A stretch of DNA of 64,000 nucleotides from Prevotella sp. Lineage in GTDB: Bacteria; Bacteroidota; Bacteroidia; Bacteroidales; Bacteroidaceae. Position numbers and translations under genes: made by a program. Position 1 is the stretch's first letter. Each line of letters begins with the position of its first letter. The notes below the pieces were generated by a model. The model worked only from the letters and a program-made list of their open reading frames with translations, did not search any database and was not told the DNA's origin. Below, piece after piece: positions 17,814 to 22,647 of this stretch. The stretch spans positions 186,001-250,000 of the forward strand of contig JAFUTI010000023.1 in the NCBI GenBank assembly GCA_017471465.1, read 5' to 3'.

Positions 17814-17984
17814 TTATTCCTCGTCGTCATCCCACCAGCTGCCGCTACCGCGGGAACCGGACAGGGTACCGCCTCCAGAATATTCTGAGGCTCCACCCAA
17901 GTTGGCATCGGTGGATGCAGCGATCATGGTCATGGTCTGTATCTTCAATACTTTCACTTCAGGGATATTATATATTTTTTTCAT
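17814..17984 (-). CDS. Small peptide A (56 aa), conserved leader and Gly/Ser-Trp-Asp tail
   Basis: Starts MKKIYNIPEVKVLKIQT, then MTMIAASTDANLGGAS, then a Gly/Ser-rich run and the end SWWDDDEE. A strong ribosome site AAGGAGG precedes the ATG by 8 bases, so translation is likely. It begins 20 bases after the stop of the large secreted-protein gene and is followed by a terminator. Its first ~24 residues align with small peptide B at 20293 (MKKIY-IP-EV-I-T-MAST), while the rest differs. There is no standard signal peptide or lipobox. The shape, conserved leader plus variable tail, recalls peptide precursors, but no processing enzyme is nearby. Function unknown. Confidence 0.75.
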   Translation of the reverse strand: MKKIYNIPEVKVLKIQTMTMIAASTDANLGGASEYSGGGTLSGSRGSGSWWDDDEE

Positions 17985-18004: not shown

Positions 18005-20148
18005 TTACTTAACAACCTTTTTGCCATTCACGATATACAGGCCCTTCGTGGGCTGGCTGACGCGCTGACCCTTCAGGTTGTAGACCTCATTGTTCACTTT
18101 TCCATTATTCATTAGCAAGGTGCTGATACCCGTTGCCTCGTTGTCGAGGCTGATGTTCAGTGAACGTGCAGAGGCACCTGCTACTTTGAAGTAACCGCGG
18201 AAAGCGGGCAGCGTAGCGGCATTGGTAGTAATCTTCACCAGCGAGCCGTTGTTATAAGCATAGTAGCTGTAAGAGCCATCGCTGGCAGGAATAGTGGTAG
18301 CAGCCAGTGTACCGATGAAGTCGACGCCGCTGACTGTTGTGCCGAGGTCAGCCGGTGTAGCAGCAATACTCTTGCCGGTCTCGCTCAGCGTCAGGCCGGT
18401 AGCTGTGGGCACCACGAGGTAGGCCTTGTTGGCCTCAGGGGCATCTACCGATGTGAAGTGCAGCGTGCTGCCATCGACACTGCTCAACTCGTAGAACGTG
18501 CCCAGCGTAGCGGCCTCAGCAGCTGTCAGTGCGAAGGGCAGGCAGACGGTTGTGGTAGTGCTGGCCGCGAACGCACGGTCGTAGGTGGGTGCTGCAGTAG
18601 CAGTGAAGGCTGCAGGAGCCTTGAAGGGATAGCCGTCGGAGATGGCGAGCTGGGCGCAAGCATCAGAGACGATGATATTAAAAGCGCCTGTCACCATACC
18701 AGTTTCAGCCACGACAAAACAGTTGGGGTTAGTAGGTATTAGCTGGGTTGTTGCAGTGATGCCTGTGGCATCAATGGCTGTGGCATTTGCATCGGCAAGA
18801 GCAGCGATTGCTGCAGAAGAAAGTGGCCCCTTACCAGCAACAGTATAGCTGTAAGGTCTTGACGGATCAACGACAACAATATTTGTAATGTCTAAAGTCT
18901 GACTATATTCAGCTTTCACACCTATCAACTTAGCCTGACCGCCACATGCTGCCTTAATGTCGGATACAGAAATACAGTAATAGTCTCCTTTCTTAACGAG
19001 TTTATGATTAGTATCCTGAACACCACCCCATTGGCCATTCTGCTTCACGCCGTCCTTTGTCAGAATATAGCCATCAGCTGTAGGGGTAAAATCAGACTCC
19101 TTGACCATGAAAAGGCGAGGCTCACCACTTGACACATAAAGTCTCAGCTCACTATAATCAGCAAGGTCAACATACTCATCCTGCGTAGCATTCCCATCGC
19201 CCATTGGGGTTTCAATGCCTGTCCCATAAACCGTAGTAACACTTCCTGTTTTCCACGTTTCATCTTTAAAATACTTACGTTCCAGAGTTCCAACAGCCAC
19301 TTCATTGCCAGGAGTACTGGTTATGACACTTGATGTGATACGAACACCGGTGATAGTCATTGTACCAGCAGTGTTACAATTCCATGCCAGTTTGGTAATT
19401 CTGTTTGCTTGACCTTGATAGCCTGTAAAATCTACGTTGTATTTACTTCCATACCAAGTATTCAAGACACCATTTTCGTCATCAGTAATCTGCAATGTCT
19501 GTACAATATCGTCACCAGAACGGAGCAGTTCTATTTTTGTAACGCTCGAAAAATCCACATCGTCTAATACAATGGAAAAAGTACCATTGCCCGCACTCGT
19601 CATCTCTCCGGTTTGGTCGTTATAAGTCAGATTAACGTCGGCCTCAATCTCTGTAGGGTCTAAAACACAAATACCTGTTTCATCGTAAGATATTGTAGTG
19701 GGCTTCCTCAAATACGGCTTGCTTGTAATTTTTACCGAGCCACTACCCGAAGCACCGCCAAATTTAATGCTGGTAATCTGTGAAAGATCTAAATCCTTGG
19801 TTTCCGTCCTTTCCGATAAAACCAAATTTTTCTCACCTGCGGAATAAAAAGCGATAGTTGCAGTTACTGTGCTGCCTGTCATAAAGCAGACACGGTATGG
19901 TCCATCGACATAGTCACTGGTGGTGAAATGAAGAGACTCATAGTTGGCTAACTGGCCGGCATCAAATGTAAACAAGTCCATTAGGTTTGAATTGCTTTCA
20001 GTCCAGGAGTATACACCTGTCTCTGCGTTCCAAGAACCCTTATCGGCTGGAGTGCCATAAGTGGCATAGAGCTTAGTAGCTTTTACCCCCCCCCCACTGC
20101 GCCGAATAGCAGGGCGAGAGCGAGTAACGATTTTGTAATTTTTCTCAT
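18005..20148 (-). pseudogene. Large secreted protein with G10 tract in the signal-peptide codons; currently out of frame (phase OFF or frameshift)
   Basis: The ATG at 20148 opens MRKITKSLLALALLFGAVGG, then a run of ten G (plus strand C10 at 20086-20095) leads straight to a stop. With 8 or 11 G the frame continues as VKATKLYATYGTPADKG into the long frame that ends at 18005, giving about 713 residues with a signal-peptidase site after VKA. The body is predicted beta-rich and unlike known enzymes; the C-terminus is YNLKGQRVSQPTKGLYIVNG then KKVVK, a likely surface-sorting tail. The paralogue at 20475 has G8 at the same position and is in frame. An internal ATG at 19981 lacks a signal peptide. 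Slippage-driven ON/OFF switching or a homopolymer sequencing error are the two explanations. Confidence 0.8.
20086..20095 (-). repeat. Poly-G tract of 10 in the signal-peptide region
   Basis: Ten consecutive G on the coding strand, located after codon 18. Lengths of 8 or 11 would put the gene in frame; 9 and 10 give early stops. Tracts of this length are prone to slipped-strand errors during replication. Confidence 0.9.
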
Positions 20149-20191: not shown

Positions 20192-20199
20192 CAAAGGTA
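20192..20199 (-). promoter_or_regulatory. -7 element (TACCTTTG) for the G10 secreted-protein gene
   Basis: Minus-strand TACCTTTG lies 43 bases upstream of the ATG at 20148. A TTTG lies 17 bases further upstream, slightly closer than the usual 19-20. The element indicates that the second cassette has its own promoter in addition to read-through. Confidence 0.6.
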
Positions 20200-20235
20200 G
20201 GTACAAACCATTAAAACAAAGAATCGAAATATCTC

Positions 20236-20292: not shown

Positions 20293-20457
20293 TTACAAGC
20301 CGAAACCGTCGATGCCAAAGTTAAACTCACGGCTGAGGATATCTTCAGAATCTGTAATCTCCGGTGCGTTATTCACGTCCATCGTGCTGGCCATAATCAG
20401 CTGATGGGTCTTAATCTCTACAACCTCTGTTGCGGGGATAATATATATCTTTTTCAT
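20293..20457 (-). CDS. Small peptide B (54 aa), conserved leader and acidic/Phe-Gly tail
   Basis: Starts MKKIYIIPATEVVEIKTHQL, then IMASTMDVNNAPEITDSE, ending DILSREFNFGIDGFGL. A GGAG lies 10 bases before the ATG. It begins 17 bases after the stop of the 557-residue secreted protein, the same arrangement as peptide A after its large partner. The leader shares MKKIY, IP, EV, the spacing to a central Thr, and an AST motif at the end with peptide A. The tail is different and has no tryptophan. No lipobox, no clear membrane helix. Function unknown; candidate secreted or processed peptide. Confidence 0.75.
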   Translation of the reverse strand: MKKIYIIPATEVVEIKTHQLIMASTMDVNNAPEITDSEDILSREFNFGIDGFGL

Positions 20458-20474
20458 ATTGCTGTACTCCATGA

Positions 20475-22148
20475 TTATTTGATTACCACTTTCTTACCAT
20501 TTACAATGTACAGGCCCTTTGTGGGCTGGCTGACGCGCTGGCCCTTCAGGTTGAAGACCTCATTGTTCACTTTTCCATTATTCATTAGCGAAGTGCTGAT
20601 GCCCGTTGCCTCGTCAGCAAAGCCAATGAAGTCGCGAGCGGAAGCAGGTATTACCAGATAAGCCTTACCAGCAGGGACTTTCACACCATCAGCAAGCTTA
20701 TAGAAGCCAACACCGTTTGTACCGTTAGCCAGCACGTAGATGGTGCCGTCACCCTCAACAGTGCCGTTAGAAACCTGCAAATCAGTATCAATGCCATCAG
20801 CAGCAACATCAAAGGTGGGTGCATAGCTTCCAGCGGCTGCGGCCTCAACGACAACACCCTTGCCAGCGGGAACATTAGTAACCTCAGTAAGCGTCACCTT
20901 GCCAGCAGAATACTTAGCAGCATAAGCAGTAACACCATTCAGCTTAGCATTTTTATACAAGCTACCGAAGGTTGCGAACTTTGCATCACCAACAGCTATA
21001 GTGCGATAGAGGAGCATATCGGTAACAGTAACATTAGAATAGTTGGCACCCTTGATGCAATTCAGTCTTGCAAGGCCATCCCAATCGGCAGCAATTGCCT
21101 TGATATCTAACGTGAATTTATTTTCATCAATTGTCTGATATTTCTCTGTTGCCCAAGTGTTACTGTTATTCGGATTAATATCAATCATCTCAGAACTGGC
21201 CAAGTCTGCACCAATCTGACCACTGGACGTCTTACGATTCATACAATAACGGGGTTTACCAGCAGAAGTAAGTACAATAAACTGGTCAAATTCATTCAGT
21301 TCGGCATAGGTGTTCATATCAACTCCACTTGTTCCATAAGGAAGACCTGTGCTTGCATTAAGGACATAATCTACATTATTATTAGCCATTCCTTTCGTCA
21401 GTTTGGTATAGCCATCCTGATATACAAAGCCATTAATAGCATCAGTTATTGCTGTTCCTGCATTAGAAAGCTTGGTTTCATCTGTTTCAGGTGATGATTT
21501 TAGAATTTCAGCCTGAGCAGCTGTAATGGCGTCTGTTAAAACCTGGAAGCTCGCAGCCGTTTTAGCAAAAGAATTTTGAGCATTACCTAAATCAATAACA
21601 ATTTGCAAATTTGCTTTGGGCACTGCCAGAGGATCGGTAGGTTCAATGACATACATCTTGGAGAATTGGAAATAAGCAACATCAGTCGCCGAAGATGTCC
21701 ATGGACCCTTTGCACCTTGTAGCCTGGCTCCTGTTGGAATTTTCACACAGTATGTGCCATTTCCTGTTACATTTGAACTAGCTGACCAATCAGAAACAGA
21801 TTCTTTTCCTTCTACTGGTTTAATATACCAATCTTTACGAGCATTTGCTGTCGGATCCCAAAAGAAGATGCGAACTGGATGTGCTGTAGCAAAATTAGTC
21901 ACCTCAAAATAGATGTAGTCATACTTATTTACATTGGCATTAGTAGTCTGAGAACTTGCATCCGATCCAAAAATGGTAACATCTTTAACGTCAATTGGAT
22001 AAGTAGCAGGAATAGAAGCAACCCAAGCTTCTGTTGTACCATTAGCAGCTTCCAGATCCTTCAGATCTGTTTCTGTCTGTGCTTTTGCCCCCCCCACTAC
22101 GCCGAATAACAGGGCAAGAGCAAGTAATGATTTAGTAATTTTTCCCAT
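20475..22148 (-). CDS. Large secreted protein with G8 tract in the signal-peptide codons (in frame)
   Basis: 557 residues. Signal peptide MGKITKSLLALALLFGVVGG then AKA|QTETD; its codons include eight G in a row (plus strand C8 at 22088-22095). The mature protein has two beta-rich stretches around a helical segment (about 190-250) and ends with FNLKGQRVSQPTKGLYIVNG then KKVVIK, the tail shared with three other secreted proteins here. No catalytic motif is recognised. It is the paralogue of the out-of-frame gene downstream: both ends are nearly the same while the middles differ. The length of the G tract predicts that +1 or -1 slippage would silence it. Likely surface-exposed or released; role unknown. 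Confidence 0.85.
   Translation of the reverse strand: MGKITKSLLALALLFGVVGGAKAQTETDLKDLEAANGTTEAWVASIPATYPIDVKDVTIFGSDASSQTTNANVNKYDYIYFEVTNFATAHPVRIFFWDPTANARKDWYIKPVEGKESVSDWSASSNVTGNGTYCVKIPTGARLQGAKGPWTSSATDVAYFQFSKMYVIEPTDPLAVPKANLQIVIDLGNAQNSFAKTAASFQVLTDAITAAQAEILKSSPETDETKLSNAGTAITDAINGFVYQDGYTKLTKGMANNNVDYVLNASTGLPYGTSGVDMNTYAELNEFDQFIVLTSAGKPRYCMNRKTSSGQIGADLASSEMIDINPNNSNTWATEKYQTIDENKFTLDIKAIAADWDGLARLNCIKGANYSNVTVTDMLLYRTIAVGDAKFATFGSLYKNAKLNGVTAYAAKYSAGKVTLTEVTNVPAGKGVVVEAAAAGSYAPTFDVAADGIDTDLQVSNGTVEGDGTIYVLANGTNGVGFYKLADGVKVPAGKAYLVIPASARDFIGFADEATGISTSLMNNGKVNNEVFNLKGQRVSQPTKGLYIVNGKKVVIK
22088..22095 (-). repeat. Poly-G tract of 8 in the signal-peptide region
   Basis: Eight G on the coding strand at the same codon position as the G10 tract of the paralogue. 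This length keeps the reading frame open. Confidence 0.9.
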
Positions 22149-22195: not shown

Positions 22196-22288
22196 AATAG
22201 AAAAAAATGTCACAGCAAATCGTAGTGTCTCGTTTGTTTTTCTATTTGTTTCAAAGCAAAAAAACAAATCTTTTTCTTGTATTTCGCA

Positions 22289-22647
22289 ACATAACCCACA
22301 CCTCTTACACCTGGCACTTAACTTGCTGAGTATCAATACCGATTATGAGCCTGGAGGTCGCACCAGAGGTGACACCAGAGGTCGCACCACTAAGTTTTTA
22401 CTACCGCAGATTTCACTGATTTCACAGATTTTGGCTGCACATGGTTGGTATGTGTCTTCGCGGCGGGAAATTTTTGTCTCGCGGCGTAACAGAAAATTGT
22501 CGCGCCGCCACATTTCAGAAAAACGGAAGCGATTAGGTGCGACCTTAGGTGTCACCTCTGGTGCGACCTTAGGTGCGACCTACTCAGACAAAAACAGCCC
22601 TGATACTCAGTGGGTTAAGTGCCAGGTGTAAGAGGTGCGGGTTATGT
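22289..22647. repeat. Inverted-repeat element 1 (359 bp, 47-bp terminal arms)
   Basis: The arms 22289-22335 and 22601-22647 are inverted copies with 4 mismatches in 47; both contain CACCTCTTACACCTGGCACT. Inside the arms lie short blocks of GTCGCACC and GACACC near the left and their complements (GGTGCGACC, GGTGTCACC) near the right, so the whole unit can fold into a long stem. The centre holds unrelated AT-rich and GCGGCG-containing sequence. It fills the gap after the GSCFA gene, ending 3 bases from that gene's stop. No transposase is inside. A second full copy is at 36159 and a single arm at 32219. Confidence 0.85.

Follow-up and report, generated by a model that had tools for sequence, protein, structure and literature searches.

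A poly-G tract at the end of a signal peptide as a putative slipped-strand ON/OFF switch of secreted proteins in Prevotella

A stretch of 64,000 nucleotides from a Prevotella sp. genome (GenBank assembly GCA_017471465.1, contig JAFUTI010000023.1), here called the window, contains a minus-strand gene for a large secreted protein, the target, whose signal peptide ends in a run of ten G. A second gene just upstream carries the same signal peptide with a run of eight G. The assembly of the window's genome comprises 2.40 Mb in 53 contigs and is 63% complete. G, C, and L numbers below are our handles for genomes, contigs, and loci. The features of the locus are as follows.

20086..20148, minus strand: start codon of the target signal peptide (recognized by eye) to the end of the G10 tract, with a stop after codon 21
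20086..20095, minus strand: G10 homopolymer of the target, exactly 10 G and the sole G10 in the 2.40-Mb assembly
18005..20086, minus strand: open frame past the target tract, 693 residues, with an unnamed N-terminal domain, a putative second domain like a carbohydrate-binding module (CBM), and a common C-terminal tail
18008..18150, minus strand: C-terminal tail of the target, ending in GLYIVNGKKVVK, common to the neighbor; a similar tail closes the other genes read to their end that bear the tract in this type of signal peptide
20192..20220, minus strand: predicted target promoter of the Bacteroidota type (TTTG, 17 bp, TACCTTTG), with the inner element TAnnTTTG starting 51 bp upstream of the ATG
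20475..22148, minus strand: neighbor gene upstream of the target, 557 amino acids, with an in-frame G8 in the same signal peptide, the same tail, and a different middle
22088..22095, minus strand: G8 tract of the neighbor, in frame

The ATG of the target at 20148-20146 opens MRKITKSLLALALLFGAVGGG and is followed by a TAA after 21 codons. Its signal peptide, MRKITKSLLALALLFGAVGG, is typical by eye, and the last codons run into the G tract. Past the tract, the frame of 693 residues terminates in the tail VYNLKGQRVSQPTKGLYIVNGKKVVK, with its stop at 18005. A preliminary description of this DNA had placed the start at 20148, a G10 tract with a stop right after codon 21, and a frame of about 690 residues beyond it, all of which were borne out by reading the minus strand. 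The promoter was assigned by the Bacteroidota consensus; its presence upstream of the ATG indicates that the target gene is probably transcribed. TAnnTTTG was found no more than 150 bp from the ATG in 13 of the 15 other tract-bearing genes described below, compared to 4% of random 150-mers from the window. Behind this predicted promoter, the target frame is intact past the tract, and the gene is OFF in the present assembly.

The identity of the product was approached through domain models and structure prediction. The whole 693-residue frame had no Pfam match at an E value of 0.01, two N-terminal parts and the tails had none at an E value of 10, and NCBIfam gave only matches below cut-off (NF033147 at 19.1 of 50 bits and, for the tail, NF052315 at 12.6 of 100 bits). 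The AlphaFold model of the full frame was weak beyond about residue 258, and the putative CBM-like second domain corresponds to about residues 136 to 255 of the model; Foldseek TM-scores were at most 0.2 in the first six rows by E value. The target product is predicted to be a secreted, probably polysaccharide-binding surface protein. The machinery for type IX secretion is present in the genomes tested: SprA (TIGR04189, the type IX translocon) scored above cut-off in 8/8 of them and in 0/14 controls, and also in the genome of L086. This makes plausible the earlier proposal of a sorting-type tail. That proposal found no support in the tail itself, since sorting-domain models were absent from the hits at E values up to 10 for isolated tails (three in NCBIfam, two in Pfam), and these models may miss some tails.

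The tract is not confined to this genome. All genome sets were compared with one genome per species. A pattern search for G7 or longer within this kind of signal peptide found 10 places in 9 of 398 genomes of the genus, the window's own included, and a reversed control gave 0. In all 10 places, the tract starts 53 bases after the ATG. A similar pattern applied to 84,980 species genomes returned 15 tracts in 14 stretches, at the same codons and in the same type of signal peptide, 9 of which coincide with places from the 398-genome search. Without exception, the 14 stretches are labeled Prevotella, Prevotellaceae, or Bacteroidales. Ruminant gut sites are named in 4 of the 14 titles, and RUG names among the titles presumably denote rumen genomes. 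A looser pattern (ATGA, 32 to 62 bases, G8) matched 294/398 genomes; the places listed were by eye mostly not signal peptides, and it was not used.

With the target, these tracts make 16 distinct ones, of which 11 are in frame and 5 are out of frame. The in-frame tracts are ten G8 and one G9 (L094), and every G8 of the 16 is in frame; the ON call for L088 rests on 92 codons before the end of its stretch. Out-of-frame tracts are G7 (L092), G9 (L085, L086, and L090), and the G10 of the target. The equation of G8 with ON is partly tautological, because most of these genes share the same phase past the tract. What is informative is the presence of tracts of out-of-frame length in genomes that represent their species, in genes with no other decay. 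The open frames past the OFF tracts are 693 (target), 691 (L090), 608 (L085, read whole from genome G156), 564 (L092), and at least 479 residues (L086, whose frame runs off the end of its stretch). The four OFF genes that could be read to their stop end in the same kind of tail. The state is set by tract sequence within the coding sequence: the G10 leads to a stop, and homologues of the target with G8 are in frame.

A frameshift exactly at the longest G run of an incomplete assembly in 53 contigs could be a sequencing or assembly error, in which case the target would really be in frame. The remainder of the window consists largely of long open frames, judged by eye from the open reading frame (ORF) list, and out-of-frame signal-peptide tracts were found in five other species assemblies whose record names belong to different projects. 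We regard error as very unlikely here, and the five other assemblies make it an unlikely general explanation.

The abundance of such tracts was compared with chance expectation. In dinucleotide shuffles, which take no account of codons, the 4 overlapping G8 matches of the window (2 tracts) compared with a mean of 1.30, and 9/100 shuffles reached 4. Codon usage was assessed in 464 kb of the window's genome, made up of the window and 20 stretches, some of them chosen for holding tracts, with 256 genes in total. GGG makes up 5.8% of Gly codons in this sample. When the proteins and codon usage of the 256 genes were kept, shuffling gave 0.37 expected G8 against 3 observed, and the expectation for G10 was 0.00, with the target's own tract falling outside its counted frame; for G6, 8 were observed against 14.7 expected. 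Runs of C7 or longer were absent from the sampled genes (0 versus about 11 expected).

Of the 10 tracts of G8 or longer in the whole assembly, 4 were counted in signal peptides (the target, the neighbor, C3:35689, and C8:1446). The gene at C8:1446 has a frame of only 78 residues and was not assigned a state, and C28:5593, which the script flagged as a fifth signal-peptide tract, was rejected by eye for an N terminus unlike a signal peptide. GGG accounts for 17.6% of 108 Gly codons in signal peptides (codons 9 to 27) and for 12% in tract-free signal peptides. From the codons of the tract-free ones, 0.03 signal peptides with G8 or longer would be expected in the sample and 0.15 when scaled to the genome, an estimate from a crude signal-peptide rule and a nonrandom sample. 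With a Poisson mean of 0.15, the probability of four or more is near 2 in 100,000 by our own arithmetic. The tract is commoner in signal peptides than composition predicts.

These figures bear on the main rival to an evolved, reversible switch, namely, a merely mutation-prone tract. A signal peptide rich in GGG would reach G8 by codon bias and drift and slip occasionally, and the OFF copies would be recent loss-of-function alleles of dispensable genes. The enrichment of GGG in signal peptides fits this, as does a review that warns of chance 7C/7G tracts and does not count homopolymer change without spontaneous reversion as phase variation (PMC11868660). The excess of 4 signal-peptide tracts over 0.15 expected and the rarity of long C runs in genes of the same genome argue against it.

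Homologues of the target speak to both sides of this question. A profile of its N-terminal domain matched proteins in 40/398 genomes at an E value of 1e-10. Two close homologues, in G338 (L084) and G362 (L087), carry an in-frame G8. Others have shorter, interrupted, or absent tracts, as a mutation-prone tract would predict: an interrupted G6 in G051, G5 in G401 and G050 (the second G401 copy being left out of this reading), GGA GGA in G107, and no Gly pair in G285. Against its three closest homologues, two of which have the G8, the target is saturated at synonymous sites (proportion of synonymous differences [pS], 0.67 to 0.77 over whole alignments and 0.65 to 0.89 in parts). The G8 of the two homologues is therefore not a simple silent-site leftover of ancestry, which argues against codon bias and drift; exchange of signal-peptide DNA between genes is a possible exception, and the shared ends of the window pair allow it. 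Owing to the saturation, ratios of nonsynonymous to synonymous change (dN/dS) could be computed for some comparisons only, giving 0.24 and 0.36 over whole frames and 0.14 to 0.66 in parts (four homologues). Amino acid change in the target family is constrained, as judged from these ratios. A search for related loci in the contigs of the 84,980 species genomes gave none.

A second family occurs in both states. Over 1 kb, the OFF gene of L092 (G7) is 70% identical in DNA to the interior of a gene in G256 (L110) that encodes 721 residues and starts with an in-frame G8. A DNA search of the 398 genomes with the L092 gene gave no near-identical orthologue; besides itself, it returned this match and two weaker, partial ones.

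Other types of signal peptide were reached by a survey of seven genomes picked for carrying such a tract. All tracts of G8 or longer were read in six of them and 21 of 30 in G228, one of which was dropped as a repeat of another, leaving 77 distinct tracts. In G362, 6 of the 12 tracts of G8 or longer lie in signal peptides of several types. Two of these belong to TonB-dependent (SusC-like) receptors: L180 (G362:C92:4342-4350) has an out-of-frame G9 with 483 codons open past the tract, and L184 (G362:C154:16100-16107) has an in-frame G8. Both frames match the Pfam domains CarboxypepD_reg-like and Plug, which we take to be the N-terminal layout of SusC. Altogether, 24 signal-peptide tracts could be decided, namely, the 16 above, the neighbor, the C3 gene, the G256 gene, and five other G362 genes. 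The count leaves out the C8 gene, L169 (whose tract, 83 bases from the ATG, lies beyond the signal peptide), C28 in G000, and L212 in G228, the last two being short flagged frames rejected by eye. Eighteen are in frame and 6 are out of frame. The OFF copies are otherwise intact: the five OFF tracts described above and the SusC-like one, which has at least 483 codons, all precede long frames. This proportion of OFF tracts with an open frame past each is a further argument against a mutation-prone tract without an evolved switch, and we consider that explanation unlikely.

The explanation that we favor, and hold to be rather probable, is a contingency locus in which slipped-strand changes of the poly-G tract at the end of a Sec signal peptide switch secreted proteins ON and OFF, the target being OFF here. 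Replication slippage would alter the length of the tract. A G8 would join the signal peptide to a secreted surface protein that probably binds polysaccharide (ON), and for the majority of these genes G7, G9, or G10 would bring a stop within a few codons (OFF). Further secreted genes of related Prevotella with the common signal peptide and tail would be under the same device, as would some genes whose signal peptides differ, TonB-dependent SusC-like receptors among them. The preliminary description had likewise proposed a slippage-controlled surface protein, now OFF. Recurrence at the same codons, both frame states, long frames past the tracts, and two homologues with G8 support it, and we infer reversibility and variation of length within a species, together with the rate of slippage, a benefit from switching, surface location, and binding of glycans.

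Several points weigh against an evolved switch. By the narrow pattern, only 9 of the 398 genomes of the genus carry the tract, and it is optional even in close homologues, which have G5, G6, GGA GGA, or no Gly pair. The majority of the 77 surveyed tracts sit outside signal peptides. The number of G8 in the window is unremarkable under dinucleotide shuffles, and Gly codons in signal peptides are rich in GGG anyway, so codon bias may supply part of the tract. The in-frame G9 of L094 means that length alone does not set the state. The dN/dS ratios reflect the long-term past rather than the present state.

The tract might also act on dose. Slippage of the polymerase or the ribosome along the run of G would then yield some in-frame protein from out-of-frame copies, and no strict ON/OFF state would result. 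PMC2831843 mentions transcriptional slippage at poly-A in Buchnera, which lends this some precedent. Nothing on such slippage at poly-G in the present group came up, though no search was aimed at it; slippage of this kind alone leaves the differing genomic lengths unexplained, and we give this alternative scarcely any weight.

Slipped-strand switching of the kind that we favor resembles phase variation at simple sequence repeats (SSRs) in Neisseria, Campylobacter, Helicobacter, and Bordetella in having a homopolymer close to the 5' end of genes for surface or secreted proteins, a reading frame that depends on length, several loci per genome, and both frame states (in part after PMC11868660). 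It differs in its host, a member of the Bacteroidales, in a tract that encodes Gly-Gly of a signal peptide common to otherwise different genes, and in that switching here is putative. Phase variation, as the review defines it, requires reversibility and a minimal rate, and variants can usually be detected down to about 1 in 100,000 colonies (PMC11868660, section 6). Orsi et al. described 5' homopolymers as a general inactivation device in 2010, with poly-A and poly-T overrepresented and poly-G/C generally underrepresented (PMC2831843). The present tracts are alike in being short, close to the start, and efficient in inactivation, and they differ in being poly-G, despite the rarity of the GGG codon. 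Bacteroidales are described as varying their surfaces by DNA inversion (PMC11868660). Invertible elements of Bacteroides at capsule and glycan-use loci likewise switch surface proteins ON and OFF, with SusC-like genes among their targets (same review), whereas homopolymer slippage within a coding sequence would need neither recombinase nor inverted repeat. The slippage-controlled sialidase NanH3 of Gardnerella, which receives a mention there, is similar in that repeat slippage governs a secreted protein of a host-associated bacterium, in another phylum and with another protein.

Among the matches listed from the open-access literature, none described phase variation by homopolymers in Prevotella or elsewhere in the Bacteroidales, and poly-G in signal peptides of Bacteroidales therefore appears to be a new setting of a known mechanism. 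Such switching would provide common gut bacteria with a second, recombinase-free route to surface variation in secreted proteins and SusC-like receptors. In metagenome-assembled genomes, a switch of this kind can readily pass as a pseudogene; existing short reads would allow a direct test of the idea. More tentatively, and with somewhat more doubt than confidence, we suggest that rumen and gut Prevotella possess a genome-wide set of poly-G contingency loci in signal peptides, based on a shared signal-peptide cassette that possibly spread with the shared tail by gene conversion. Many secreted glycan-binding proteins and some SusC-like receptors would then be independently switchable, giving each cell its own surface mix without a recombinase.

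The neighbor gene was said in the preliminary description to be a paralogue with an in-frame G8 at the same codon position. The G8 is indeed present and begins at the same distance from the ATG (53 bases) as the tract of the target. Paralogy is an apt term for the ends: the first 61 bp are 88.5% identical in DNA, 130 bp of the tail are 90% identical, and the proteins share 40% identity over 183 alignment columns at the C-terminal end. It fits the rest poorly, where protein matches are short and weak (best E value, 0.007). Target and neighbor look like different cargo between common ends. The near identity of the ends in DNA, with differing middles, is as if cargo had been swapped or the ends homogenized by gene conversion. 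Each of the two large secreted genes is followed by a small ORF of about 56 to 59 codons with an MKKIYxIP... core (20293-20472 and 17814-17984, both on the minus strand). The intergenic region upstream of the neighbor (22260-22640) contains, by eye, several direct and inverted copies of GGTCGCACC-like motifs.

Some tracts of the survey lie in other settings. An in-frame G9 in G000 (L021, C2:82566-82574) sits in an N-terminal extension before a lipoprotein-like signal sequence (FSIAVLVLTFLPFLSAC), and an in-frame G8 in the same genome (L025, C18:44130-44137) lies past the signal peptide in the N-terminal domain of a TonB-dependent receptor, whose later frame matches Pfam Plug. A G8 (L152, G338:C4:1521) and a G10 (L170, G338:C33:4809) occur outside long frames, each followed by TAAGAGCCAAGCC, apparently as parts of a repeated element. 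Two G9 tracts with identical flanks (L201 in G228:C26 and L210 in G228:C94) are found near two contig ends, where the repeat may break the assembly.
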